64,000 nucleotides of DNA from Carettochelys insculpta. Taxonomy: Eukaryota > Chordata > Testudines > Carettochelyidae. Where the stretch lies: positions 205,141,501 through 205,205,500 of the forward strand of contig NC_134139.1 in assembly GCF_033958435.1 (NCBI RefSeq), written 5' to 3'. Within the stretch, counting starts at the first letter, position 1; every line of letters begins with the position of its first letter. Position numbers and translations under genes: made by a program. The notes under the pieces are model-generated. The model was given only the letters and a program-made list of their open reading frames with translations, ran no database searches and was not told the DNA's origin. Positions 6,345 through 51,202 of this stretch are shown here, in pieces.

Positions 6345-6622
6345 CTGTGTGGTTGCCCAGAACTGGACAAAGAAAAATTTGGCTCTTGATTATTTTTTTT
6401 TGTCTTTGAACATAGATTTTGTAACTGTGTTACATTACAACAAAAGACTGCCTTGGTTTAACCAGGAGATCTTGCATGATTTCAAAAACAAAAAGTCATA
6501 TAAAAAGTGGAAACTAGGACAAATTACAAAGGATGAATATAAGTGAACAATATACATGGGCAGGGGCAAGATTAGAAAGGCAAAGGCACCAACTGAGCTC
6601 AAACTAGCTAGAGACATAAAAG
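6345..6622 (+). mobile_element. CR1-type LINE fragment between endonuclease and RT
   Basis: The frame at 6,349-6,620 (one stop at 6,544) encodes the linker found before the reverse transcriptase in CR1 ORF2. It reads [20 protein letters not shown], then a G-Q-x-T-K-D-E-Y block, then a 'RKAKAPTELKLARDIK' block. It stops abruptly where the short DNA transposon at 6,623 begins, which suggests that element inserted into it. Confidence 0.6.
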
Positions 6623-17534: not shown

Positions 17535-19040
17535 TGAGAAACATCAACAATTCAAGCTTGCTTGCTGGAATGTGCAGACCATGCTGACCAGCTTGACTGA
17601 AGATCTTCAGGCCATCAGTGACACCTGAAAGACTGCTGTCATCAACGAGGAACTGAAGAGGCTCAGAGTTGATATCGCTGCACTGCAAGAGACACGACTC
17701 GCAGATTCGGGATCTCTAAAGGAAAAGGACTACACCTTTTTCTGGCACGGTAAAGCCCAAGAAGAACCCAGAGAGCATGGTGTTGGCTTTGCTGTCAGAA
17801 ACACCCTTCTACAGATGGTGGATTTAGTGATGGGTGGATCAGAAAGACTTCTTCGGATCATGCTTCAAACTTGCGCCGGTCCTGTCCACCTGATCAGCGC
17901 TTATGCCCCAACGCTGTATGCCACACCAGAAGTAAAAGACAAGTTCTACGACGTGCTTAATGCTGCTGTAGCGCAAATACCTGCTCGTGAACAACTGTAC
18001 ATCTTGGGTGACTTCAATGCAAGAGTTGGAGCTGATTGGGCCTCATGGCCTTCCTGCTTAGGACACTTCGGTGTGGGAAAAATGAATGACAATGGACAGC
18101 GTCTCCTTGAACTGTGCACGTACCACAATCTGTGCATCACAAACACATTCTTCCAAACGAAGCCACAGCACAGAGTGTCGTGGAGACACCCACGCTCGAA
18201 GCACTGGCATCAACTAGATGTGGTCATCATTAGGCGTAATAACCTCAAAAACGTCCTTCTGACACGCAGCTCTCATAGTGCTGACTGTGATACAGATCAC
18301 TCGCTAGTTTGCTCCAAGCTCAAGCTGAGACCCAAGAAGCTGTACTGCTCTAAACCTGCTGGAAGGCCCCGCATTGACGCCAGAAAGACCGCAAACTCGG
18401 AGAAAGCTGAAAAGTTCAGAGAGACCCTCCAGGAAAATCTGCGCAGCGGCCCTGGGGGCGTCGATGCGACATCCAAATGGCAACATCTGAGGGATACAGT
18501 TTACAACACAGCCTTGTCGGTGTTTGGAAGAAGAGCTAGAAACACGAACGACTGGTTCGAAGCTAACTCTGATGAGATGATTCCAGTCACTGAAAAGAAG
18601 CACGCTGCACTCCTGGAGTACAAACGCTCACCGAGCCAGAGTACCCAGCAAGCACTCAGAGAGGCCAGAAGAACAGTACAGCAGACAGCCAGGCACTGTG
18701 CCAACAACCACTGGCTCCAGCTATGCAGCAGCATTCAGACCTGTGCCGACTTTGGTAATCTCAGAGGAATGTACGAGGGTATGAAGAAGGTATTAGGACC
18801 CACCCAGAACAAGATGGCACCTCTGAAATCCAAATCTGGTGAAGTCATCGCTGACAAAGCCAAACAGATGGAGCGCTGGGTTGAGCACTACTCCAAGCTG
18901 TACTCACGCGAGAATGTTGTGGTTGACGCAGCCCTCAATGCCGTCGAGCTCCTACCAGTAATGGATGAACTGGACCAAGAGCCAACTGTGGACGAACTGA
19001 AGACAGCCATCGACAGCATTGCAGCCACAGCAAACACTCA
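17535..19040 (+). mobile_element. APE-type non-LTR retrotransposon, endonuclease part of ORF2
   Basis: A long frame (open from 17,815; earlier part split by a stop at 17,626) encodes an apurinic-type endonuclease of a LINE ORF2. Visible blocks in order: CWNVQTM (start of the fold); 'LRVDIAALQETR' with the metal-binding Glu; ISAYAPT; 'LGDFNARVG' with the catalytic Asp-x-Asn; 'SWRHPRSKHWHQLDVVIIRR'; and 'DTDHSLV' with the terminal Asp-His. A basic linker follows, and the frame ends before the reverse transcriptase. Host annotations often label such frames 'craniofacial development protein 2-like', but this is a mobile element. The lineage (RTE, L2 or Rex-like) is not resolved. Confidence 0.8.
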
Positions 19041-19122
19041 TCAGAAATTCTTGCACTGCTGTTTAACAGAGGGGTCTATTTGTAGAGTTTGAGCATCACA
19101 GTATTTTGTGTAGAATTTAAGG
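19041..19122. other. LINE junction and flank
   Basis: The LINE frame loses family-like sequence at about 19,040. The following bases are unrelated AT-rich flank. Confidence 0.35.
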
Positions 19123-19985: not shown

Positions 19986-20865
19986 AGCAGGACTATAAAG
20001 GGGGGCAACAACGAGAGGAAGGGGAGGAACTCCCGAATCCTGGAGAGACCAAACACTGTCTGCGACAAGGCCTGATCACCTTTGCCGCTCCTCCTGCCTG
20101 CTTGCGAGTTAGATAGAGTAGGGCGCGAATACCTGTCAGTACCACGAAAACTTTATTAGTAGTATAGCTAGCTCAAGTAACATGATGCAATGGTGCATCT
20201 TATTCCTGTATCTGCTTAACTATGTAAGTAAATGCTCTCATTAACTCTGTTTGTATTTTGTCTGTTTGTATCCTGTCCTGTGACAAGTCTGTGTATATGT
20301 TCGATGTGTCTATGTTCTAGTTTCATGAGCCTGTAAGGGTCACATGCAAAGCTGAGGAAAAGACGTCCCAGAACCCTCAAAAGGGCTTTGACCCAATGAC
20401 CGGGAAGTTTTGAAAGCAAGCTGCCTCAGCTGGGAAGCATGATCCCCTGAACCTCCGTGTTCTACAGGACAGAGTGTTGTTTGTGTCTGTACGTCACACC
20501 TCCCATTAGCCCTTAAGTCCTACTCCTGAAACTTGAGACACACTTCTTGGGGATAACAGCTCTTAGAAATTGGGATAGATAACAGCCAACGAACTCCACC
20601 AACCCTTGGGCTGTTTTAGATAACTACTGGGAATTAGAAAAACCCCAGGGGGTGTTTCTCTTTCTTTTGGGCATAATCCTATTCCTCCTGTTAGTAGTGT
20701 GGTGTAAGATACAGCTATAACTACAAAAGATTTGTAACAGCAAAATCAATCTCAGCGGTGCGGGTCATCACCGAGAAGCAGCCCTCCTTTTTCCCAGTTC
20801 AACACATCACTTATCTCTCACCTCCACCCTTATTTAGGACTTGGAGCACAGCATATTTGCTTCTC

Positions 20866-22083
20866 ATGGCAACGAGGATGGGATCTGGGGGTGATTGTGA
20901 GTGCCCCTGGATGAAGGAGTGCAGAAAGATAATGCGTTTCAACATATCGTGTTCCATATGCGGGGGCCGGGGGGACCAAGATTATCATTTCTCCCTTAAA
21001 GAGGGAGACAGAATAAAAACTTGGAAAGGAAAGGTAACGATGAAGAGCTTGGCTTGTTTGCTAACTGTCCACCCCCAGTTATTATTTTTCCCAATAAGTG
21101 ATGATACCCAACCAAAATTAATAGCCACTAAACAAAAGAAACCAGACCCTTCAGAAGGTCCCGATCATGCATTAAAGGTTATAAAGAAAGTGATTCAGAA
21201 AGCCGAAGTTCCAGCAGATACTGTTAGGATCCCCCCCACGTTACAGCCGGGGGTGTGCACAGCTGCACAACTTCAATCATGGGTGGAGGAGTTTAAAGGA
21301 ACCAGGAAGCCAGAAAAGTTGGGCTTGACCAAATACCCCCCAGACAAAGTAGCGGAGGTGATATATTATTGCCTCCTAAGAGCAGCTAATGAGTTAATGA
21401 AGACCGAGTCTTGTTTAAACTCCGCTCTCATGACCCTTAAAACTACCCCCGACACCAATCTGCAAAAAGAGAAGGAGACCGAGCCCAACAGTTACGGTGG
21501 AGAGGATAAGACCGAGTGGGTAACCTTGCCCTCGGCCCCCAATCCACCAGAGCCTGCAGGAGAACCCTCTCTCACATATCCTTAGAATGAGCTGCTCCAG
21601 CCAGAAGGGCAGGAACCTGTTACAGACCCTCTGGGCCCGCAAGTTTTCCCAGTTGTCATTACAAAGGTGGTTAATAATTCTGTTATGGGAGAAACCACTT
21701 CCACAATAGTGCAAAGGGATAGGACGGCTGGAGAACTAAAAACTTTACTGGAAGTCATGAGACGAAAGGCAGGGGAGTCTGAGGTGGACTGGCTAGGGAG
21801 ATTAGTCCTTGAGGATGGATCCGAATGGGTGGACCACCGGGAGGCTTTATATTTAGCCCGTAATGCTAGTTGGAGAGGGAGTGGGGGTTCTGCAAACCCA
21901 GTAATACAGAACACGGTTTGGCCCATTACATTACCCACCTTAAGTCTGCTAATTAGAAGTACGAGTTTTCAGGCAAGATTGCTAGCACCTGGCTTGATTA
22001 CCTCGTCAGCGGATTTCTTACGGGCCATTGCTGGCATCAGTGTTTTAGTGTGGACACCAGTAGCGGGAGGCGGGGGGTGGTAG
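20866..22083 (+). pseudogene. Retroviral gag-like gene, interrupted
   Basis: One reading frame runs from an ATG at 20,866 to 22,083 with a single in-frame TAG at 21,583. The N-terminal third contains a cluster of cysteines (CECPW, then a C-x2-C pair in SCSICGGRG). The middle is lysine- and proline-rich. After the stop the frame resumes with a charged stretch. Size, order and position ahead of an env-like region suggest Gag. No CCHC nucleocapsid box is visible and the match to Gag is by context, so this is an inference. Frames past 22,083 continue in a shifted register through a 100-bp duplication (22,181-22,380). Confidence 0.45.
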
Positions 22084-25009: not shown

Positions 25010-25224
25010 CAGATATAATGGATATTGAGACTGGTTAGGTAGGAAAATGGAAAGGGACCTAGGGGTTACGGAGGATGAAAGGCTGGATATGAGTAAACAG
25101 TGTGCCCTTGTAGCCAAGAAGGCTAACGGCATACTAGGGTGCATTAGGAGGAGCATTTCAAGCAGCTCTAGAGAAGTAGTTATTCCTCTTTATTTGGCAG
25201 TGGTGAGGCCACATCTGGAATATT
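25010..25224 (+). mobile_element. CR1 LINE, left half of copy split by Harbinger
   Basis: The ORF2 tail segment runs from AGGAAAATGGAAAGGGACCT to CACATCTGGAATATT and stops exactly at the transposon border. The same CR1 continues at 29,697 with ATTGTGTCCAGTTTTGGGCC. The last three bases (ATT, 25,222-25,224) are repeated at 29,697-29,699 as the target duplication. Confidence 0.9.
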
Positions 25225-26465
25225 AGCTGCGTCTACATGTGCACGCTACTTCGAAATAGCGGCGCCAACTTCGAAATAGCGCCCGTCACGGCTACACGTG
25301 TTGGGCGCTATTTCGAAGTTAACATCGACGTTAGGCGGCAAGACGTCGAAGTCGGGAACGTGTAGTCATTGCGCGTCCCGCAACATCGAAATTGCGGGGT
25401 CCTCCATGGCGGCCATCAGCTGAGGGGTTGAGAGACGCTCTCTCCAGCCCCTGAGCTCGATGGTGACCACGTGGAGCGGCCCCTTAAAGCTCCCCGCCCC
25501 CTCCCTTCCTGTGCAGGAAGCTGAGAGAACGTGCAGGCAGCAGCCCAGACACGCAGCCAGCCTGCACGTCCCTCAGCCGCCACAGACATGCCCCCCAGCT
25601 GTGATGGCTGCACGCCAGTCCCCTAAGCGCCCCCAGTGGACCCCCCCAAGGGGATCCAGCGCTCCCAGCCCAGCAGCCAGGCGGGGAAGCGGCAGCGGGG
25701 CCCCTCCTGGACGGAGGCTGAGCTTCGGGACCTGCTGGGGCTCTGGAGTGAGGAGGAGGTGCTCCAGGTAATGGGGAGCAAGAGGCGGAATGCGGATGCA
25801 TTCGCTCGGCTGGCCAAGGGCCTGGCTGCCCGGGGTCACCCTGCCCGCACTCCAGATCATGTCTGGAGTAAAGTGAAGGAGCTGCGGCAGGGTTACGCCT
25901 GGGCCTGGGATGCGGCTGGCCGATCTGGGGCCGCCCCCGTCACTTGCCCCTTTTACAGGGAGCTCAGGGACATCCTGGGCCCCCGGCACACCTCCTCCCC
26001 TCCGGCCACTCTTGATACCTCGGCTGAGGAGCCCCAGCAGGCCCTGGAGGCGGAGTCTGCCCCGGAGGCAAGCCCCGCACCCGGGGGCCCCCCCAGGAGC
26101 CCACCCCCGGGGCACCGGAGGAGGAGGGGGAGTCCTCCTCCAGTGACACCGGCCTCCAGATCATCCTGCCATCCAGGAGCTCCAGCCGGTCGTCCGCCCT
26201 CCGGGTGTCCCCCGACCATGGAAGTGGACCGTCAGGTATGTACCCACCCTGGTGCACACCCCCAGGGTTGAGGGGCGGGGGTAACAGATATGACCAGGGC
26301 CCTCCACATGCCCAGATGACCACGGCCCCAACGACAGCAGTGGCATGTCACGCAGAAGAGTGCATCAGCCCCTGCCCCCGCCCCAGCACGACAGTGCCAT
26401 GCCCCATCCCCGGGGCTGGGGGGAGCAGAACCCCTAGGGTCCCCTGGGGGGAGGGGGTGGGACAC

Positions 26466-26466
<1 letters not shown>

Positions 26467-26498
<32 letters not shown>
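26467..26498 (+). repeat. (AGC)n microsatellite
   Basis: About ten uninterrupted AGC/CAG units lie immediately left of the solo LTR. The six bases GCAGCA at its right edge were duplicated by the LTR insertion. Confidence 0.9.
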
Positions 26499-26499
<1 letters not shown>

Positions 26500-26928
26500 G
26501 TGATGGAGTGGGGGGAGTGCAAATGCGAGACTCAGGCTACATATAAGAAACAAGCAGAATAGTTCCCAGTGGCTAAGGATGATCCTGGGGCTACAACTGG
26601 AAGGTTACACCTCTGCCCTGAACAAAGAGGAGGGAGGAGCCGAGCTGGGTTTGAATCGGGGGTGGCAGTTAGAGGCTAGGGGAAGGGAGAGCTAGAAGGC
26701 AGCCAGCCTGAGGAGGGGGAAAGCTACACCCCAGGGGCACCCCTGGGCACCCCTCAGGGTCTTCTCCCCAGGACGGGTTGGAAGGACTGTCTCTGACTGC
26801 TGTACTGTCGCTTCTGTGAGAAACTGGGCATCTGTTGCCTAATAAACCTCCTGTTGTACCTGCTGACTGAGAGTCACTCCTGCCAGCGGATGGGGTGCAG
26901 TGCAGGGGGACCCCTGAACCCCATCACA
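26499..26928 (+). mobile_element. Solo LTR inside the Harbinger SANT-gene intron
   Basis: The 430-bp segment begins TGTGATGG and ends CCATCACA, a perfect 8-bp terminal inverted repeat of the TG...CA type. It is flanked by the 6-bp duplication GCAGCA (26,493-26,498 and 26,929-26,934). A polyadenylation signal AATAAA is at 26,841-26,846 and a TATA-like ATATAAGA is at 26,541. It contains no coding region. These are the marks of a retroviral solo LTR in + orientation. Confidence 0.9.
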
Positions 26929-27561
26929 GCAGCATCTCCTGGGTACGGGCATGGGGAACCTGCAGCAGAGGGGTGCGGGGACAAGGGCCACGGCTCGGGG
27001 CCCACACTAACGGCTGTCTCCACTCTTCTTCCCTCCCTCCTGTGTTCTGCAGCTGCACCATCGGAAGGACCGGAGAGCGCCGGCGAGGTGTCAGTGGTCC
27101 CGGACAGCCCTCCGGGGCCATCACTCCAGGCCAGCCCCTCGGCGGAGGACCGACCAGCCCCACGGTGGGGAAGACGGTGGACCCAGCACCACCAGCCGAC
27201 GGTGACGGACCCCCAGCTGCTGGCCCTCCACCGTCGGCAGCTGGAGGTCTCCGAGCAGCGGCTGTGGGTGGAGGAACACCGCCTCCAGCTGCAGGAGCGG
27301 GTGCTGGCCTGGCGCCAGGAGGCATGGGGGGCCTACAAGCGGACCTTCAACCGTATCGTGGACTACCTGGCCCCCCATGCCACGCCGTCTGCCGCTGCAC
27401 CTGCCCTGCCTGCTCCACCCGCTGCTCCACCCGCTGCGCCGTCCGCCGTCGTACTGCCACCAAGGGCCCTTCTGCCGAGGGGGACCTGGGGCCAGCTGAC
27501 ACCCGCCGGCCGTATCTCCCGGTCCGCCCAGCCCCCAGCCAGCCCCGGCCAGGGCTGAGGC

Positions 27562-28010
27562 TGAGGTGGGGATCCCGGCCGCCCACCCCCAGCGCTGGAC
27601 TTTAGGGGGTGTGGGGCCCAGGACGTGGCCCCCCCTCCCCCTTTGTATATATTCCCCCCAGTTTTAAGTTAGTTTGTTGTAAATAGTTTATATATTTGAC
27701 CCCTGTTACGATGCTGATCCTTACCCCCCCATGTAAATAGTTCTCCCCTTCCTTGTCTTCCCCTTTCATCTTATCCCTATTTATAATACATATATATATG
27801 TTAGATTTTGCCTGTAAATAGTTAGTCTTGTTGATAATAATAATAAGAGTTCTACAGATATTTGAGTTGATGAACAACTGTCTGCTTTTATTTACAAGAA
27901 AAGTGGGGGGGGGGTGCTCTTGGGTGCTCTGTGGTGTTGGCGTAGGGGCAGGGAGTGTTGTGGAGGATGGGGGGGGCAGTGGTGGGCCTGCCAGCGTTCA
28001 CCCCGCGGCC
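27562..28010. other. AT-rich spacer between convergent Harbinger genes
   Basis: This is the spacer between the two gene ends. It includes TATATATATA and (AAT)n runs near 27,790-27,850 and a G run near 27,905. It presumably holds both 3' untranslated ends. Confidence 0.7.
27887..27892 (-). terminator. Polyadenylation signal of the transposase gene
   Basis: AATAAA on the minus strand lies about 120 bases past the transposase stop codon, at a typical 3'-UTR distance. No other AATAAA lies between the two. Confidence 0.6.
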
Positions 28011-29391
28011 TCATAGAACTGGGCCCGCAGGGCCTCCCGAACCCAGGTCCCTTCGGGTCCACCTGGCGACTGGGAGCAGCGGGTGGCTGCACATCGGCCC
28101 TGCCAGCCTCCACAGCCCAGCCCTGAAAGGCCTCCCCCTGCTCTCCACGAGGTTGTGTAGGGCGCTGCACGCGCCCACAATCTGGGGGATGTTGGTGGGG
28201 CCCGCATCAAGGTGGGTGAGGAGACACCTCCAGCGCCCTTTGAGGCAGCCAAATGTGCGCTCCACCACCTGGTGCGCGTGGTTGAGGCGCTGGTTGAAGC
28301 GCTCCTGGCTGGTAGACAGATGGCCCGTGTACGGGTGCATGAGCCAGGGCCAGAGGGGGTATGCCGCATCTGCGATGATGCAGACGGGCATGGTGGTGTC
28401 CCGCACAGGGATCTCCCGCTGGGGGATGTAGGTCCCCACCTCCAGCCAGCGGCACAGGCCCGAGTTCCGGAATACCTGGGTGTTGTGGGTGCTGCCAGGC
28501 CAGCCCACATAAATGTCCTGGAAACGGCCCCAGCTGTCCACCAAGGCCTGGAGGACCACTGAGTGGTAGCCCTTCCTGTTCAAGTAGCATCCTCCACTGT
28601 GTTCCGGGGGATGGATGGGGATGTGAGTCCCATCCAGAGCCCCGAAGCAATTGGGGAAGCCCAGGGTGGCAAAGCCCGCGATGGCAGCATCCGGGTCCCC
28701 AAGCCTCACGAGCCTGTGGAGGAGCAGGGCATTGATGACGCAGATGACCTGCAGGGGAAGCACATGGGAGAGCACCAATGAGGGGTGTGCAGGGTGTGTG
28801 TAGCCCTCCCCTGCCAGAGCCCCCCTCCTCCCCCCCGCCAGGGCTGCCTTCCTCCCCTCCCCTGCCAGGGCTGCCTCCCCCTCCCCCCGTGGGTCCTCTT
28901 ACCTCCATGAGGACAGCCCCGACGGTGGCCTTGCCAACACCAAACTGCTGGCCCACAGATCGGTAGCTGTCTGGAGAGGCCAGCTTCCAGACAGTGAGGC
29001 CGACCCGTTTCTCGACGCTGAGGGCACGCAGCATGAAGGTGTCCTGGTGCCTGAGTGTGGGGGTGAGCCACTGGCATAGCTCCAGAAATGTCTGCTGGCT
29101 CATGCGAAAGTTCTGGAGCCAGCGGTTGTCGTCCCACTCTCTGAGCACCAGCCGCTCCCACCAGTCGGAGCTCGTGGGGTAGCTCCACAGCCGGTGGCAT
29201 GTGCGGCGCGGGTGTGTGTGTGTGTGTGCTGCAGGGTTGAGGGTTGTGTCCTCCTCCCCTGCGGGCAGCTCCTCCTCCGTGGCAAGAAGGTGCTCAGCTG
29301 CCTCCTGCATGGCATGGAGCAGGGCGAGCACTGCTCCTGCAGGGGCAGCTGGGTGGACCTCTGGCTGCTGCTGCTGCTGCTGGGGGTCCAT
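28011..29391 (-). CDS. PIF/Harbinger DDE nuclease (transposase), two exons
   Basis: The protein cuts and joins transposon DNA in the nucleus together with the SANT partner. I chose the ATG at 29,391 (MDPQQQQQQ, with G at +4); an in-frame ATG at 29,436 would add 15 residues. Exon 1 (29,391-28,903) encodes a helix-turn-helix-like block with LSVEKRVGLTVWKLASPDSY and QQFGVGKATVGAV. A 154-bp intron follows, with donor GAG/GTAAGA and acceptor CCCTGCAG/GTC. Exon 2 (28,748-28,011) encodes the DDE_Tnp_4 nuclease fold: 'FGALDGTHIPI' (Asp ~202), 'GWPGSTHNTQVF' (Asn ~252), 'ADAAYP' (Asp ~290) and 'VERTFGCLKGRWR' (Glu ~326). The joined frame is about 408 codons with no stop, normal for the family. Asn 252 stands where many relatives, including the host homologue HARBI1, have Asp. 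Activity is therefore uncertain despite the intact frame. Confidence 0.85.
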
Positions 29392-29696
29392 GACTGTGTC
29401 GCTCGAGGTGTGCGTGCCTATAGCTCTGCAGACCACGTGCTGTGCAGGCTGCGTGTGTCGGGGAGGGGCCCTTTAAGGGAGCGGCTAGCTGTTGCCCCGG
29501 AAGCGCTAGTCAGCCCTGTGACGCTGTCTGCAGCTGTTCCTGGCACCCTTATTTCGATGTGTGCTACTCTGGCGTGTAGACGTTCCCTCGCAGCACCTAT
29601 TTCGATGTGGTGCTGCGCAACGTCGACGTTGAACGTCGACGCTGCCAGCCCTGGAGGACGTGTAGACGTTATTCATCAGCACGCGTAGACATAGCC

Positions 29697-30190
29697 ATTG
29701 TGTCCAGTTTTGGGCCCCCCAGTATAAAAAGGATGTGGATTTGCTGGGGCAGGTTCAGCAAAGGGCAACAAAAATGATTAAGGGTCTGGAGCACAAGACC
29801 TATGAGGATAGGCTGAGGGATTTGGGCTTGTTTAGTTTACAGAAGAGAAGACTTAGAGGTGATTTAATAGCAGCCTTCAACTTCCTGAAGGGGAGCTCTA
29901 AAAAGGAGGGTGAGAAACTGTTCTCAGTGGTGTCAGATGGTGGAATAAGGAGTAGTGGTCTGAAGTTGAAGAGGGAGAGGTGTGCGTCAGATATTAGGAA
30001 AAACTACTTCACCAGGCGGGTGGTGAAGCATTGGAATGCGTTGCCTAGAGAGGTGGTGGATTCTCCATCCCTTGAGGTTTTTAAGTCCTGGCTGGGATGA
30101 CTTAGTGGGCGTTGATCCTGCTTGAAGCAGGGGGCTGGACTAGATGACCTCCTGAGGTCCCTTCCAGCCCTGTGATTCTGTGAAAACAAA
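29697..30190 (+). mobile_element. CR1 LINE, right half and 3' end of the split copy
   Basis: This continues the copy at 25,010-25,224. It encodes the ORF2 end: MIKGLEHKTYEDRLRDLGLF, LRGDLIAAFNFLKG and WNALPREVVDSPSLEVFKSW. The untranslated end 'GACCTCCTGAGGTCCCTTCC' and the tail GTGATTCTGTG are at 30,145-30,182. The frame is open for 121 codons. Confidence 0.9.
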
Positions 30191-38479: not shown

Positions 38480-39169
38480 GGCTACGTCTACACGTGCACT
38501 CTACATCGAAATAGCTTATTTCGATGTAGCGACATCGAACGTCTACACGTCCTCCAGGGCTGGCAACGTTGACGTTCAACTTCGATGTTGGGCAGCACCA
38601 CATCGAAATAGGCGCTGCGAGGGAACGTCTACACGCCAAAGTAGCACACATCGAAATAAGGGTGCCAGGAACAGCTGCAGACAGGGTCACAGGGCAGACT
38701 CAACAGCAAGCCCCTCCCTTAAAGGGCCCCTCCCAGACACAGTTGCACTAAACAACACAAGATCCACAGAGCTGATAACTGGTTGCAGACCCTGTGCATG
38801 CTGCATGGATCCCCAGTTGCAGCAGCTGCAGCCAGAAGCCCTGGGCTAAGGGCTGCTGCACACGATGACCATAGAGCCCTGCAGGGGCTGGAGAGAGAGC
38901 GTCTCTCAACCCCTCAGCTGATGGCCGCCATGGCGGACCCCGCTATTTCGATGGTGCGGGACGCGGATCGTCTACATGTGCCCTACTTCGACGTTCAACT
39001 TCGAAGTGGGGCGCTATTCCCATCCCCTCATGGGGTTAGCGACTTCGACGTCTCGCCACCTAACATCGATTTCAACTTCGAAATAGCGCCCAACAAGTGT
39101 AGCCATGACGGGCGCTATTTCGAAGTTGGCGCCACTACTTCGAAGTAGCGTGCACGTGTAGACACAGCC
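38480..39169 (-). mobile_element. Non-autonomous Harbinger derivative
   Basis: The 690-bp element is flanked by the 3-bp duplication TCA. The ends GGCTACGTCTACACGTGCA and the complement GGCTGTGTCTACACGTGCAC match the element at 25,225-29,696. Both subterminal regions are retained, including GATGGCCGCCATGGCGGACC (38,920), seen inverted near 25,405. The coding middle is replaced by a short deletion junction. Orientation is opposite to the full element. Confidence 0.85.
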
Positions 39170-40576: not shown

Positions 40577-41287
40577 GGCTGTGTCTACACGTGCACGCTA
40601 CTTCGAAGTAGCGGCACTAACTTCGAAATAGCACCCGTCGCGGCTACACGCGTCGGGCGCTATTTCGAAGTTAACTTCGACGTTAGGCGGCGAGACGTCG
40701 AAGTCGCTAACCTCATGAGGGGATCGGAATAGCGCCCTACTTCGACGTTCAACGTCGAAGTAGGGACCGTGTAGACAATCCGCGTCCCGCAACGTCGAAA
40801 TTGTGGGGTCCTCCATGGCAGCCATCAGCTGGGGGGTTGAGAGATGCTGTCTCTCCAGCCCGTGCGGGGCTCTATGGTCACCGTGGGCAGCAGCCTTTAG
40901 CCCAGGGCTTCTGGCTGCTGCTGCTGCAGCGGGGGATTCATGCTGCATGCACAGGGTCTGCAACTCGTTGTTGGCTCTGTGTATCTTGTGCTGTTTAGTG
41001 CAAGTGTGTCTGGGAGGGGCCCTTTAAGGGAGCGGCTGGCTGTTGAGTCCGCCCTGTGACCCTGTCTGCAGCTGTGCCTGGCACCCTTATTTCGATGTGT
41101 GCTACTGTGGCGTGTAGACGTTCCCTCGCTGCGCCTACTTCGATGTGGTGCTGCGCAACGTTGATGTTGAACATCGATGTTGCCAGCCCTGGAGGACGTG
41201 TAGACGTTATTCATTGAAATAGCCTATTTCGATGTCGCCACATCGAAATAGGCTACTTCGATGTAGGCTTCACGTGTAGATGTAGCC
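40577..41287 (+). mobile_element. Non-autonomous Harbinger derivative
   Basis: The 711-bp element is flanked by the 3-bp duplication AAC (40,574-40,576 and 41,288-41,290). The left end GGCTGTGTCTACACGTGCAC and the complement of the right end GGCTACATCTACACGTGAAG match the 25,225 element. It keeps the left 200 bases (CTCCATGGCAGCCATCAGCT near 40,810) and the right 250 bases (GGCACCCTTATTTCGATGTG near 41,080, also at 29,546). The two genes are missing. It lies in the same orientation as the full element. Confidence 0.88.
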
Positions 41288-42738: not shown

Positions 42739-44275
42739 TTTTCATAGAATCATAGAATGCTAGGACTGGAAGGGACCTTGAGAGATCACTGAGTCCAGCC
42801 CCCTGCCCTCATGGCAGGACCAAGTGCTGTCTAGACCATCCCTGATAGATGTTTATGTAAGCTGTTCTTAAATATCTCCAGAGATGGAGATTCCACAACC
42901 TCCCTAGGCAATTTATTCCAGTGTTTGACCACCCTGCCAGTTAGGAACTTTTTGCTTATGTCCAATGTAAACCTCCCTTGCTGCAGTTTAAGTCCATTGC
43001 TTGTTCTATCCTCAGAGGTCAAGAAGACCAAGTTTTCTCCCTCCTCCTTATGACCCCCTTTTAGATACCTGAAAACAGCTGTCATGTCCCCCCTTAATCT
43101 TCTTTTTTCCAAACTAAACAAGCCCAATTCTTTCAGCCTTTCTTCATAGGTCACGTTCTCTAGACCTTTGATCATTCTTGTTGCTCTTTTCTGGACCCTT
43201 TCCAGTTTCTCCACATCTTTCTTGAAATGCGACACCCCCAACTGGACACAATACTCCAACTGAGGTCTAACCAGCTCACAGTCGAGCGGAAGATTCACTT
43301 CTTGTGTCTTGTTCACAACACACCTGTTAATGCCTCCCAGAATCATGTTCGCTTTTTTTGCAATGGCATCACATTGTTGACTCATATTTAACTTGTGGTC
43401 CACTGTAACCTCTAGATCCCTTTCTGCCGTTCTCCTTCCTAGACAGTCACTTCCCATTCTATATGTGTGAAACTGATTGTTCCTTCCTAAGTGGAGCACT
43501 TTGCATTTCTCTTTATTAAACTTCATCCTGTTTACTTCAGACTATTTCTCCAATTTGTCCAGATCCTTTTGAATTTTGACCCTGTCCTCCAAAGCAGTTG
43601 CAACCCCTCCTAGCTTGCGATCATCTGCAAACTTAGTAAGCGTACTTTCTATGCCAATATGTAAATCATTGATGAAGATATTGAACAGAACCAGTCCCAA
43701 TACAGACCCCTGTGGAACCCCATTTGTTATACCTTTCCAGCAGGATTGAGAACCATTAATAACTACTCTCTGACTACAGATACCCAGCCAGTTTTGCGCC
43801 CACCTTGTGGTAGCCCCATCTAAGTTGTATTTGCCTAGTTTATTGATAAGAATATCATGCAAGACCATATCAAATATCTTACTAAAGTCTAGGTATACCA
43901 TATCCACCAGGCTTATCCTGTCAAAGAAAGCTGTCAGATTGGTTTGACATGATTTGTTCTTTGCAAATCCATGCTGGATGTTCCCTATCAGTTTACCATC
44001 TCCCAAGTGTTTGCAGATGATTTCCTTAATTATTTGTTCCATAATCTTTCTTGGCACAGAAGTTAAACTGATTGGTCAGTAGTTTCCTGCGTTGTTCTTA
44101 TTCCCCTTTTTATAGATGGGCACTATAATTGCCTTTTTCCAGTCTTCTGGAATCTCTCCTGTCTCCCATGATTTTCCAAAGACGATAGCTAATGGTTCAG
44201 ATACCTCGTCCATCAGCTCCTTGAGTATTCTAGGATGTATTTCATCAGGTCCTGGTGACTTGCAGACATCGAACT
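42739..44275 (-). mobile_element. CR1 LINE, reverse transcriptase to 3' end
   Basis: This is the best-preserved CR1 in the window. The tail TCATAGAATCATAGAATGCT is at 42,743. Minus-strand blocks in order: QHGFAKNKSCQTNLTAFFD; 'VDMVYLDFSKIFDMVLHDIL'; 'GVPQGSVLGLVLFNIFINDL'; the active-site block FADDRKLGG (near 43,625) with both aspartates; a stop near 43,540; then MKFNKEKCKVLHLGRNN and [20 protein letters not shown] to the ORF end near 42,832. The 5' part of ORF2 is truncated. It lies in MSRA intron 1, antisense. Confidence 0.9.
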
Positions 44276-45582: not shown

Positions 45583-46560
45583 AGCTGTGTCTACACTATC
45601 CAGGTCTTTCGAAAGAGCAGGCCCCAGTTCAAAGTAGCGTGCAGTGCATCTACACATGCCACACGGTCTTTCGAAGATGAAATTGGCGTTAGGCCCCGCA
45701 GGAATCAAGACCGCTCTTCCAAACAGAAAATAGGAACAGGCCGCTCCTTCAACACCTTTTTTCGAAAAAGGACGTGTAGATGCTCTGCGTCCCGCTTTTT
45801 CGAAAGCAGGGTCTGCCATGGCAGCAATCAGCTGTTAGGTGGAGACGTGCTGCCCAGCCCCTGCGGGGCTCTGTGGTCTGTGTGTACAGCAGCTCTTAAA
45901 GCTGCACAGATCAAGAATCCCCACTGCAGGAAGCTGAGAGCATGTAGGCAGCAGCCACCGCTTGTGTTGCCCCTGCACATCTCGGCGACGCCCCATACAG
46001 CTGCCGTACAGCCATGGCCAGCATCCGGGCAGGTCAGGAGCCCCAGGATCCCCCTCCGAGCATGCCCAGGGCTCCCAAGTGTCCAGCTGGAGGGCAGGAA
46101 GGCTCACCCCCTCCTGGAGTGAGCACGAGGTCCAGGACCTGCTGGGGCTCTGGCAGGAGAAGAAGGTGCGCTGGGTGATGGGGAACCAGCAGCGGAACAC
46201 GGCTGCCTTTGCCTGGCTGGCCAAGGGCCTGAATACTGGGGTCACCCTGTCTGCACTGCTGACCAAGTCAAGAGTAAGGTTAAGGAGCTGTGGCAGGGTT
46301 ATGCCTGGGCTTGGGACTTGGCCAGCCAGTTGGGGGCCACCCCTGCTTCATCCCCTATTAAAGGGAGCTCAGGACCATCCTGGGGCCCCGGGACACCTCC
46401 TCCCCGCCAGCCCTCCGGGATGCCTCAGCCAGGGAGCCCAGCTGGGAGAGGAGCAGGAGAGACAGCCTTGCACCACCAGCACCAAACATGGAGCCAGCCT
46501 CAGGCTCCTGCCTGGGGCCCTGGGGGAAGTGGCTGCTCATCTGCTCGTGAATAATTGAAA
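45583..46560 (+). mobile_element. Diverged Harbinger-like copy with SANT-domain remnant
   Basis: The left end AGCTGTGTCTACACTATCCA starts a sequence laid out like the left third of the element at 25,225: subterminal 'TTTCGAAAG' motifs, CAGCAATCAGCTGTT (near 45,822), then a coding region. It encodes a decayed Myb/SANT-like domain, 'SWSEHEVQDLLGLWQEKKVR' and 'NTAAFAWLAKGL' (about 46,112-46,230), followed by shifted frames. The right half, transposase and right terminus are missing. Divergence from the 25-kb copy is large, so it is a different, older subfamily. Confidence 0.7.
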
Positions 46561-49708: not shown

Positions 49709-50106
49709 CCCTGTGTCTACACGTGCTCCTTCCTTTCGAAATGGGCATGTTAATGAGCTGGTTCAAAAGATGCTAATGAGGCTTCATTAGCGTAATGGCA
49801 GCTGCAGTGATTCGAAAGTGCAGCTTTTCGAATCGCGCTTCACCCGTGGAGACGGGACTTTCCGAAAGGACCCCCCCAGTTTTTGAAAGCCCTTCTTCCG
49901 ATCACCAGATAGGAAGAACGGCTTTTGAAAACTGGGGGTATCCTTTTGGAAGGTACCGTCTCCACGGGTGGTGTGCGATTTGAAAAGCTGCACTTTTGAA
50001 TCACTGCGGCCGCCATTGTGCTAATGAGGCTCTGCATATTCATTGCAGCACCTCATTGGCATCTTTTGAACCTACTCGAAAGGAAGGGGCACGTGTAGAT
50101 CCAGCC
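49709..50106. mobile_element. Fold-back MITE
   Basis: The whole 398-bp element is an imperfect inverted repeat. The ends are CCCTGTGTCTACACGTGCTC and, on the other strand, GGCTGGATCTACACGTGCCC. The centre lies near 49,905, where CCTTCTTCCGATCACCAGAT meets its complement. The inner motifs GACGGGACTTTCCGAAAGGA and CATTAGCGTAATGGCAGC recur inverted. The minus- and plus-strand open frames here mirror one another for that reason. Confidence 0.8.
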
Positions 50107-51053: not shown

Positions 51054-51202
51054 GGCTGTGTCTTCACCAGCTCCCTACTTTGAAGGGAGCATGGTAAGTA
51101 GGGTGTCGGGAGATTATTAGTGAAGTGCTCCATGGGCTCTTTTGAAAGAGCCTCCTTCTTTTGAAAAATATTTCGAAATAACTTGCTAGTGTAGATGCAG
51201 CC
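51054..51202. mobile_element. Short MITE, 149 bp
   Basis: The ends are GGCTGTGTCTTCACCAGCTC and, on the other strand, GGCTGCATCTACACTAGCAA. The left part (CCTACTTTGAAGGGAGCATG, GTAGGGTGTCGGGAG) matches the left part of the element at 10,542, so it is an internally deleted relative. Confidence 0.65.

Follow-up and report, generated by a model that had tools for sequence, protein, structure and literature searches.

A decayed Harbinger-like transposon in the turtle Carettochelys insculpta and the spliced DDE exon of its family as a probable natural gene trap

A stretch of 64,000 nucleotides from the genome of the turtle Carettochelys insculpta (contig NC_134139.1, positions 205,141,501 to 205,205,500 of the forward strand; here called the window, with positions counted from its first letter) contains a transposon at 25225-29696. 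Our preferred reading, which we hold as probable, is that it belongs to a two-gene Harbinger-like (PHIS) family with multiple copies, that this copy is no longer active, and that the family's own splice acceptor, DDE exon and poly(A) signal together make a natural gene trap. The transposase is predicted to be encoded by two exons, of which the second holds the entire catalytic domain of DDE type. The family depends on the 3' splice site of the intervening intron to make its transposase, and for this reason a copy in sense within a host intron would present the host transcript with that acceptor, a DDE exon open in phase 0, a stop codon and a poly(A) signal. The exons of the host could then be spliced onto the DDE exon, yielding a truncated host protein with a DDE tail where the phase fits and an out-of-frame transcript where it does not. 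An element placed in this way may be likened in design to a laboratory gene trap.

The element is a 4,472-base-pair (bp) insertion within a CR1 long interspersed nuclear element (LINE), and comparison of the flanks identified ATT on both sides as the target-site duplication (25222-25224 and 29697-29699). When the flanks were fused with a single ATT and compared with an uninterrupted CR1 at 12585-12286, 300 of 300 bases aligned gap-free, at 85.7% identity. The terminal inverted repeats lie at 25225-25254 (plus strand) and 29667-29696 (minus strand). They are imperfect in this copy, with 13 of the 20 outer bases matching, and clearer in two short derivatives nearby, copies A and B, which also carry about 40 bp of subterminal sequence that is missing from the right end here. 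The paired ends and clean 3-bp duplication in a CR1 described in an earlier reading of the sequence alone were confirmed, with the qualification that the repeats are imperfect.

The transposase gene, on the minus strand, consists of exon 1 at 28903-29391 (163 codons, beginning MDPQQQQQQP), a phase-0 intron of 154 bp at 28749-28902 (GTAAGA..CCCCTGCAG) and exon 2 at 27998-28748, with an AATAAA poly(A) signal downstream at 27887-27892, also on the minus strand. The frame is open throughout, over 163 codons in exon 1 and 245 in exon 2 (28011-28748), and the splice sites, GTAAGA..CAG, are near-consensus, in agreement with the stop-free transposase of about 408 codons proposed by the sequence-only reading. 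Exon 2 matches the Pfam domain DDE_Tnp_4 (E 1.1e-37; 28152-28637). It keeps all three residues of the catalytic triad, D39, D127 and E163, as expected of a PHIS-type transposase with D, D and E in an RNase H-like fold; the concern that this copy might be inactivated at every catalytic position is thereby removed. In comparison with paralogues, the family frame is left twice in the last ~45 residues, at about 28130 and about 28055, and the confidence of the predicted structural model drops in the same tail. Exon 1, in which a helix-turn-helix motif was sought, has no Pfam match in this copy; some relatives carry precomputed PF26138 or PF13613. A sequence search for solved relatives found none, with two matches at E about 0.7, and Foldseek alone gave no match at E <= 0.001. 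Read without splicing, the frame at 28207-29391 (minus strand) stays open for 394 codons with the DDE domain not correctly read, a possible product of intron retention.

Two protein searches returned 23 Carettochelys transposase proteins, 12 among the best 120 of 351 matches and 11 more among 90 matches. Among the matches listed, the five best are Carettochelys insculpta proteins, 76-83% identical, and those of Pelodiscus sinensis have 52-62% identity to the queries. Homologues of the second gene number 24 proteins, all from Carettochelys, with 61-93% identity over 22-99% of the query. These matches would by themselves make Carettochelys insculpta very probable as the source species. The earlier description of such two-gene elements as uncommon does not suit this genome, in which 24 SANT-gene and at least 23 transposase proteins, of one family or its subfamilies, are annotated. 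The available text of the genome paper attributes 310 Mb, or 14.23%, to DNA elements (PMC10960847), and the word 'Harbinger' has no occurrence in that paper's main text.

Inspected by eye, 11 of the 23 Carettochelys transposase models have the two exons joined precisely at the junction that the window sequence predicts (P0002, P0003, P0007, P0031, P0075, P0126, P0127, P0128, P0141, P0143 and P0192), among them members of subfamilies with no more than 55-68% identity (P0007, P0031, P0126 and P0127). The intron is accordingly a feature of the family, and the possibility that the family lacks it, raised with the sequence-only reading, can be set aside. In the P element, an intron has a regulatory role, and a comparable arrangement, in which the unspliced message gives a protein devoid of the DDE domain, would account for the frame that continues for 394 residues with no correctly read DDE domain at its end. 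However, the sequence is GC-rich and chance open frames are many (64 stop-to-stop frames of at least 115 residues in the window), and none of the family proteins inspected has that form, so that regulation by the intron seems very improbable.

In nine further models, from eight loci (P0001, P0008, P0083, P0088, P0121, P0122, P0123, P0124 and P0125), other sequence stands upstream and the DDE match begins at the first residue of exon 2, which is itself changed in P0088 and P0123. Exon 2 of P0002 starts at residue 137, and local alignments of the nine proteins to P0002 all begin there or up to two residues earlier (135, 136 or 137); the protein junction coincides with the transposase exon 2 acceptor. 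The loci are HLF (isoform X1), tectonic-3 (TCTN3, X1/X3), ANKRD13C (X1), glucocorticoid-induced transcript 1 (GLCCI1, X4), PNPLA4 (X1) and three unnamed genes. In-frame proteins of host and transposase sequence are therefore predicted in 9 of 23 Carettochelys models, at eight loci of which five bear host names, and in one protein of Pelodiscus. The other three Carettochelys models comprise P0004, with a shortened exon 1 and exon 2, P0005, whose sequence opens two residues ahead of exon 2, and P0102, which is in another frame there. At three of the five named loci the match to a host Pfam domain breaks off close to the junction (ANKRD13_C, 1-61 of 332; FAM117, 1-111 of 310; Patatin, 1-174 of 191), the ANKRD13_C and FAM117 matches extending 8 and 5 residues beyond it.

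At PNPLA4, isoform X3 has the transposon's own exon 1 upstream and X1 has patatin sequence, and their exon-2 parts are identical over 244 residues, which points to one transposon copy with two upstream partners. Furthermore, the coding region is made of transposon sequence only in models named 2-hydroxyacid oxidase 2 (HAO2) X5, quinone oxidoreductase X2, frizzled-6 (FZD6) X4 and others, which is what out-of-frame splicing would give. In Pelodiscus sinensis, P0144 has foreign sequence meeting the DDE exon at the same residue as the Carettochelys fusions. This protein (LOC142827982) carries a precomputed adenylosuccinate synthetase Pfam domain (PF00709), and the second D of its triad is replaced (NAAYP). 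On a wider scale, 195 exon-2 matches were found in a set of 219 proteins: 164 have exon-1-like sequence upstream, 16 start within 15 residues and 15 have other upstream sequence. Ten of these last join at residue 1, namely the nine Carettochelys fusions and P0144.

Several observations weigh against the gene-trap interpretation. In P0122 the tectonic domain is almost whole (4-152 of 155) and not cut short, and HLF X1 is without any host Pfam domain, so that its identity rests on the model name; the bZIP domain of HLF would lie just after the junction. Five of the 15 proteins with other upstream sequence (P0094, P0102, P0171, P0190 and P0195) join elsewhere than at residue 1. Moreover, BBS4 X2 (P0192, one of the 11 models with the exact exon junction) joins host sequence inside transposase exon 1, which suggests a second acceptor there. 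The catalytic triad and the family tail are both kept in five of the nine fusion proteins, at four of eight loci (P0001 and the tectonic-3, ANKRD13C and GLCCI1 fusions); PNPLA4 (P0125) keeps the three catalytic residues and not the tail, while HLF (P0008), P0083 and P0088 carry a truncation or frameshift ahead of E163 and have lost part of the triad. A protein search detects mostly in-frame fusions. Moreover, the fusions are predicted protein models, and gene-prediction software, too, would be inclined to choose this acceptor.

The last point leads to a different account of the same proteins, namely that automatic annotation, with little support from RNA, linked exons of the host to the closest strong acceptor and open frame of an intronic copy. 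The models bear names such as 'isoform X' or 'uncharacterized LOC', a predictor would pick that acceptor in every copy, and the DDE domain is broken in P0008, P0083 and P0088. Nevertheless, a predictor guided by coding frames has little reason to give host names to models such as HAO2 X5, quinone oxidoreductase X2 and FZD6 X4, whose coding regions are transposon-only, and neither the two partners of one copy at PNPLA4 nor the same junction in a second species is readily explained in this way. NCBI isoform models usually rest on RNA-seq. An annotation artefact is thus a possibility to be taken seriously, which we judge unlikely on balance; were it true, what remained of the finding would be a decayed Harbinger-like element of ordinary kind whose intron is conserved. 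Under the gene-trap interpretation, we infer that the models reflect real transcripts, that the copies concerned presumably sit in sense in introns, and that the poly(A) signal would serve to end the host message.

Whether the fusions arose separately was considered with an exon-2 tree of 26 rows, nine of them fusion rows (eight Carettochelys loci and P0144); P0031, P0102, P0122 and P0143 were left out because of an identical exon, an unclear frame, a shared locus or not being chosen. The fusion rows need eight state changes on this tree, a number as low in 381 of 500 label shuffles, and are thus no better clustered than shuffled labels; a single origin was recovered in 0 of 200 bootstrap trees. 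On the other side, many forks are weak and the well-supported branches force only two changes, and the case for separate captures would rest mainly on the differing upstream partners and not on the tree.

A bolder proposal is that an intron-dependent autonomous family works as a built-in gene trap that recurrently gives its DDE exon to host genes, here at nine loci in two turtle lineages, and that some of these loci come to express, from the host's promoter and behind the host's N-terminus, a DDE domain of full length with its triad. We put it forward as speculation with the odds against it. If true, nature would here be carrying on an experiment in the capture of transposases, and the fusions might even supply transposase to non-autonomous copies. 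It is very improbable that the fusions are domesticated genes under selection in which the DDE domain serves the host. The P0001, TCTN3, ANKRD13C and GLCCI1 fusions, with three catalytic residues and the family tail, would be in keeping with such a function, but in P0008, P0083 and P0088 the domain is disrupted ahead of E163, the family tree intermixes fused with unfused copies, and the same host-gene fusion was not seen in other turtles among the matches listed (best 120 of 351, and the second search).

The principle of trapping is already known from CSB-PGBD3 (PMC3459987), in which a DNA transposon lying in an intron of the host gene contributes a splice acceptor and a poly(A) signal, and alternative splicing gives rise to a fusion protein. 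PGBD3 in CSB is a single primate copy with the same trapping logic (PMC3459987). There, one conserved piggyBac copy has its acceptor upstream of the whole transposase, whereas the gene models of the Carettochelys family indicate an internal acceptor, the joining of the catalytic exon alone and the involvement of several copies; what differs is this combination, repeated over several loci of one genome. Host-transposase fusion genes are reported to arise through transposon splice sites in introns (PMC8290160; PMC8700633, citing Cosby et al. 2021), and 106 of them are counted in tetrapods in the accessible text of PMC8290160. Those are established genes, in contrast to the isoform-level gene models in two species described here. 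A literature search found, among the matches listed, no paper on this transposon family or its fusions, and no paper containing both 'Carettochelys insculpta' and 'Harbinger'.

As outlined in the available part of PMC10901741, SAFB proteins prevent intronic L1 and Tigger elements from serving as gene traps. These resemble the present family in being sense intronic transposons able to end host transcripts early; unlike it, they are described there as intronless, and the Carettochelys family would require its own splice acceptor. An intron-bearing transposon may therefore pose a different problem for the host, as an element that lost its acceptor would no longer make transposase. Work on host-transposase fusions has mostly dealt with ancient and rare cases that survived. 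If a single family has been captured many times, at scattered loci and always through one splice site, the early stage could be followed directly, including the rate of splicing-in, the fit of phase and subsequent loss or retention. A warning for annotation also follows: in a genome of this kind, a model labelled 'isoform X1' of HLF, TCTN3 or PNPLA4 may turn out to be chimeric with a transposon.

With regard to classification, the element shares with PIF/Harbinger, as characterised in the accessible text of PMC4482050 and PMC9179366, a DDE_Tnp_4 transposase, a separate Myb/SANT gene, terminal inverted repeats, 3-bp duplications and internally deleted derivatives. The same text of PMC4482050 separates the PHIS groups by their duplications: TWA for PIF/Harbinger, ANT for Pangu, CWG for NuwaI and C|TNA|G for NuwaII. 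All three complete insertions in the window, a small number, have 3-bp duplications (ATT, TCA and AAC), and none is TWA, which sets them apart from PIF/Harbinger in the strict sense. Since the duplication type distinguishes the published groups and none of the three is TWA, the element is classed from its sequence as a Harbinger-like (PHIS) two-gene DNA transposon and its group within PHIS is left open. The earlier identification as a two-gene Harbinger with a spliced transposase accordingly stands for Harbinger-like and falls for Harbinger in the strict sense. ATT suits Pangu's ANT and the ends suit its AG/GG, but ANT fits one insertion in three, and the second protein of Pangu is described in the available text of PMC4482050 as having no known motif, where a Myb/SANT domain is found here. 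NuwaII fits through C|TCA|G of copy A, again one insertion in three. Neither assignment by duplication was retained. A further possible difference from PIF/Harbinger is the intron predicted in each gene here. Harbinger-Snek of sea kraits offers a further likeness, as a large reptile Harbinger family supplying sequence to host mRNAs (PMC8437027).

The SANT/Myb gene, on the plus strand, has exon 1 at 25627-26235, whose true start is unsure, an 817-bp intron at 26236-27052 (GTATGT..TTCTGCAG) and exon 2 at 27053-27605. Exon 1 matches Myb_DNA-bind_4 (Pfam, E 1.3e-10), which bears out the recognisable SANT gene reported earlier. The paralogue proteins P0202, P0203 and P0208 read straight across the junction, and P0196, P0198 and P0205 deviate there by a few residues (both by eye). 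The frame of exon 1 changes near 26070-26112, where the Carettochelys paralogues P0204 and P0198 match in two frames by tblastn, and that of exon 2 between about 27450 and 27510. The intron contains a 430-bp insertion resembling a solo long terminal repeat at 26499-26928 (TGTGATGG..CCATCACA), with GCAGCA on both flanks; this insert carries AATAAA at 26841 and adjoins a CAG run in the intron.

Because the transposase tail and both SANT exons leave the family frame and this insert lies in the SANT intron, it is very unlikely that the copy is autonomous now. Copy A (38480-39169, minus strand, duplication TCA) and copy B (40577-41287, plus strand, duplication AAC) are internally deleted derivatives that align end to end. 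They are 89.7% identical to each other, and each is 89-91% identical to the ends of the 25225-29696 copy. Two stretches of subterminal sequence, about 57 and 40 bp long, are common to A and B but absent from the 25225-29696 copy, and on this ground they appear to descend from a relative of that copy and not from the copy itself. The sequence-only reading had named it as a candidate source of the short derivatives nearby; for A and B, the terminal alignments led to the rejection of this idea. An intact element, autonomous now or very recently and the source of these derivatives, would agree with the open 408-codon transposase, the intact triad and the clean ends and duplication. It is nonetheless extremely improbable given that the reading frame shifts in the tail of the transposase and in each SANT exon, that both genes are required for transposition (PMC9179366), that A and B have segments absent here, and that their distance from this copy is about as great as that between A and B.

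Other traces of related elements occur in the window. An older relative of the element's left half, beginning AGCTGTGTCTACAC, lies at 45583-46542 and contains a decayed SANT gene with about 30-48% protein identity to the family. Further ends related to the terminal repeat GGCTGTGTCTACAC are found at 6621, 44938, 49709-50106 and 51054-51202; their neighbouring sequence is different, and they perhaps belong to other short non-autonomous families. The pairs 49709/50106 and 51054/51202 showed no matching 3-bp flanks by eye, and the duplication count given above covers the three complete insertions, with these pairs and the single ends left out.

Elsewhere in the window, a pair of long open frames next to each other (295 and 165 residues) at 20698-22083 on the plus strand, with no Pfam match, is possibly derived from a retroelement. 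A 487-residue open frame at 17629-19089, also on the plus strand, has an endonuclease/exonuclease/phosphatase domain (E 2.2e-9) and is probably LINE-derived, and a reverse-transcriptase frame at 43542-44072 on the minus strand (RVT_1, E 2.2e-17) probably belongs to a CR1-like LINE.

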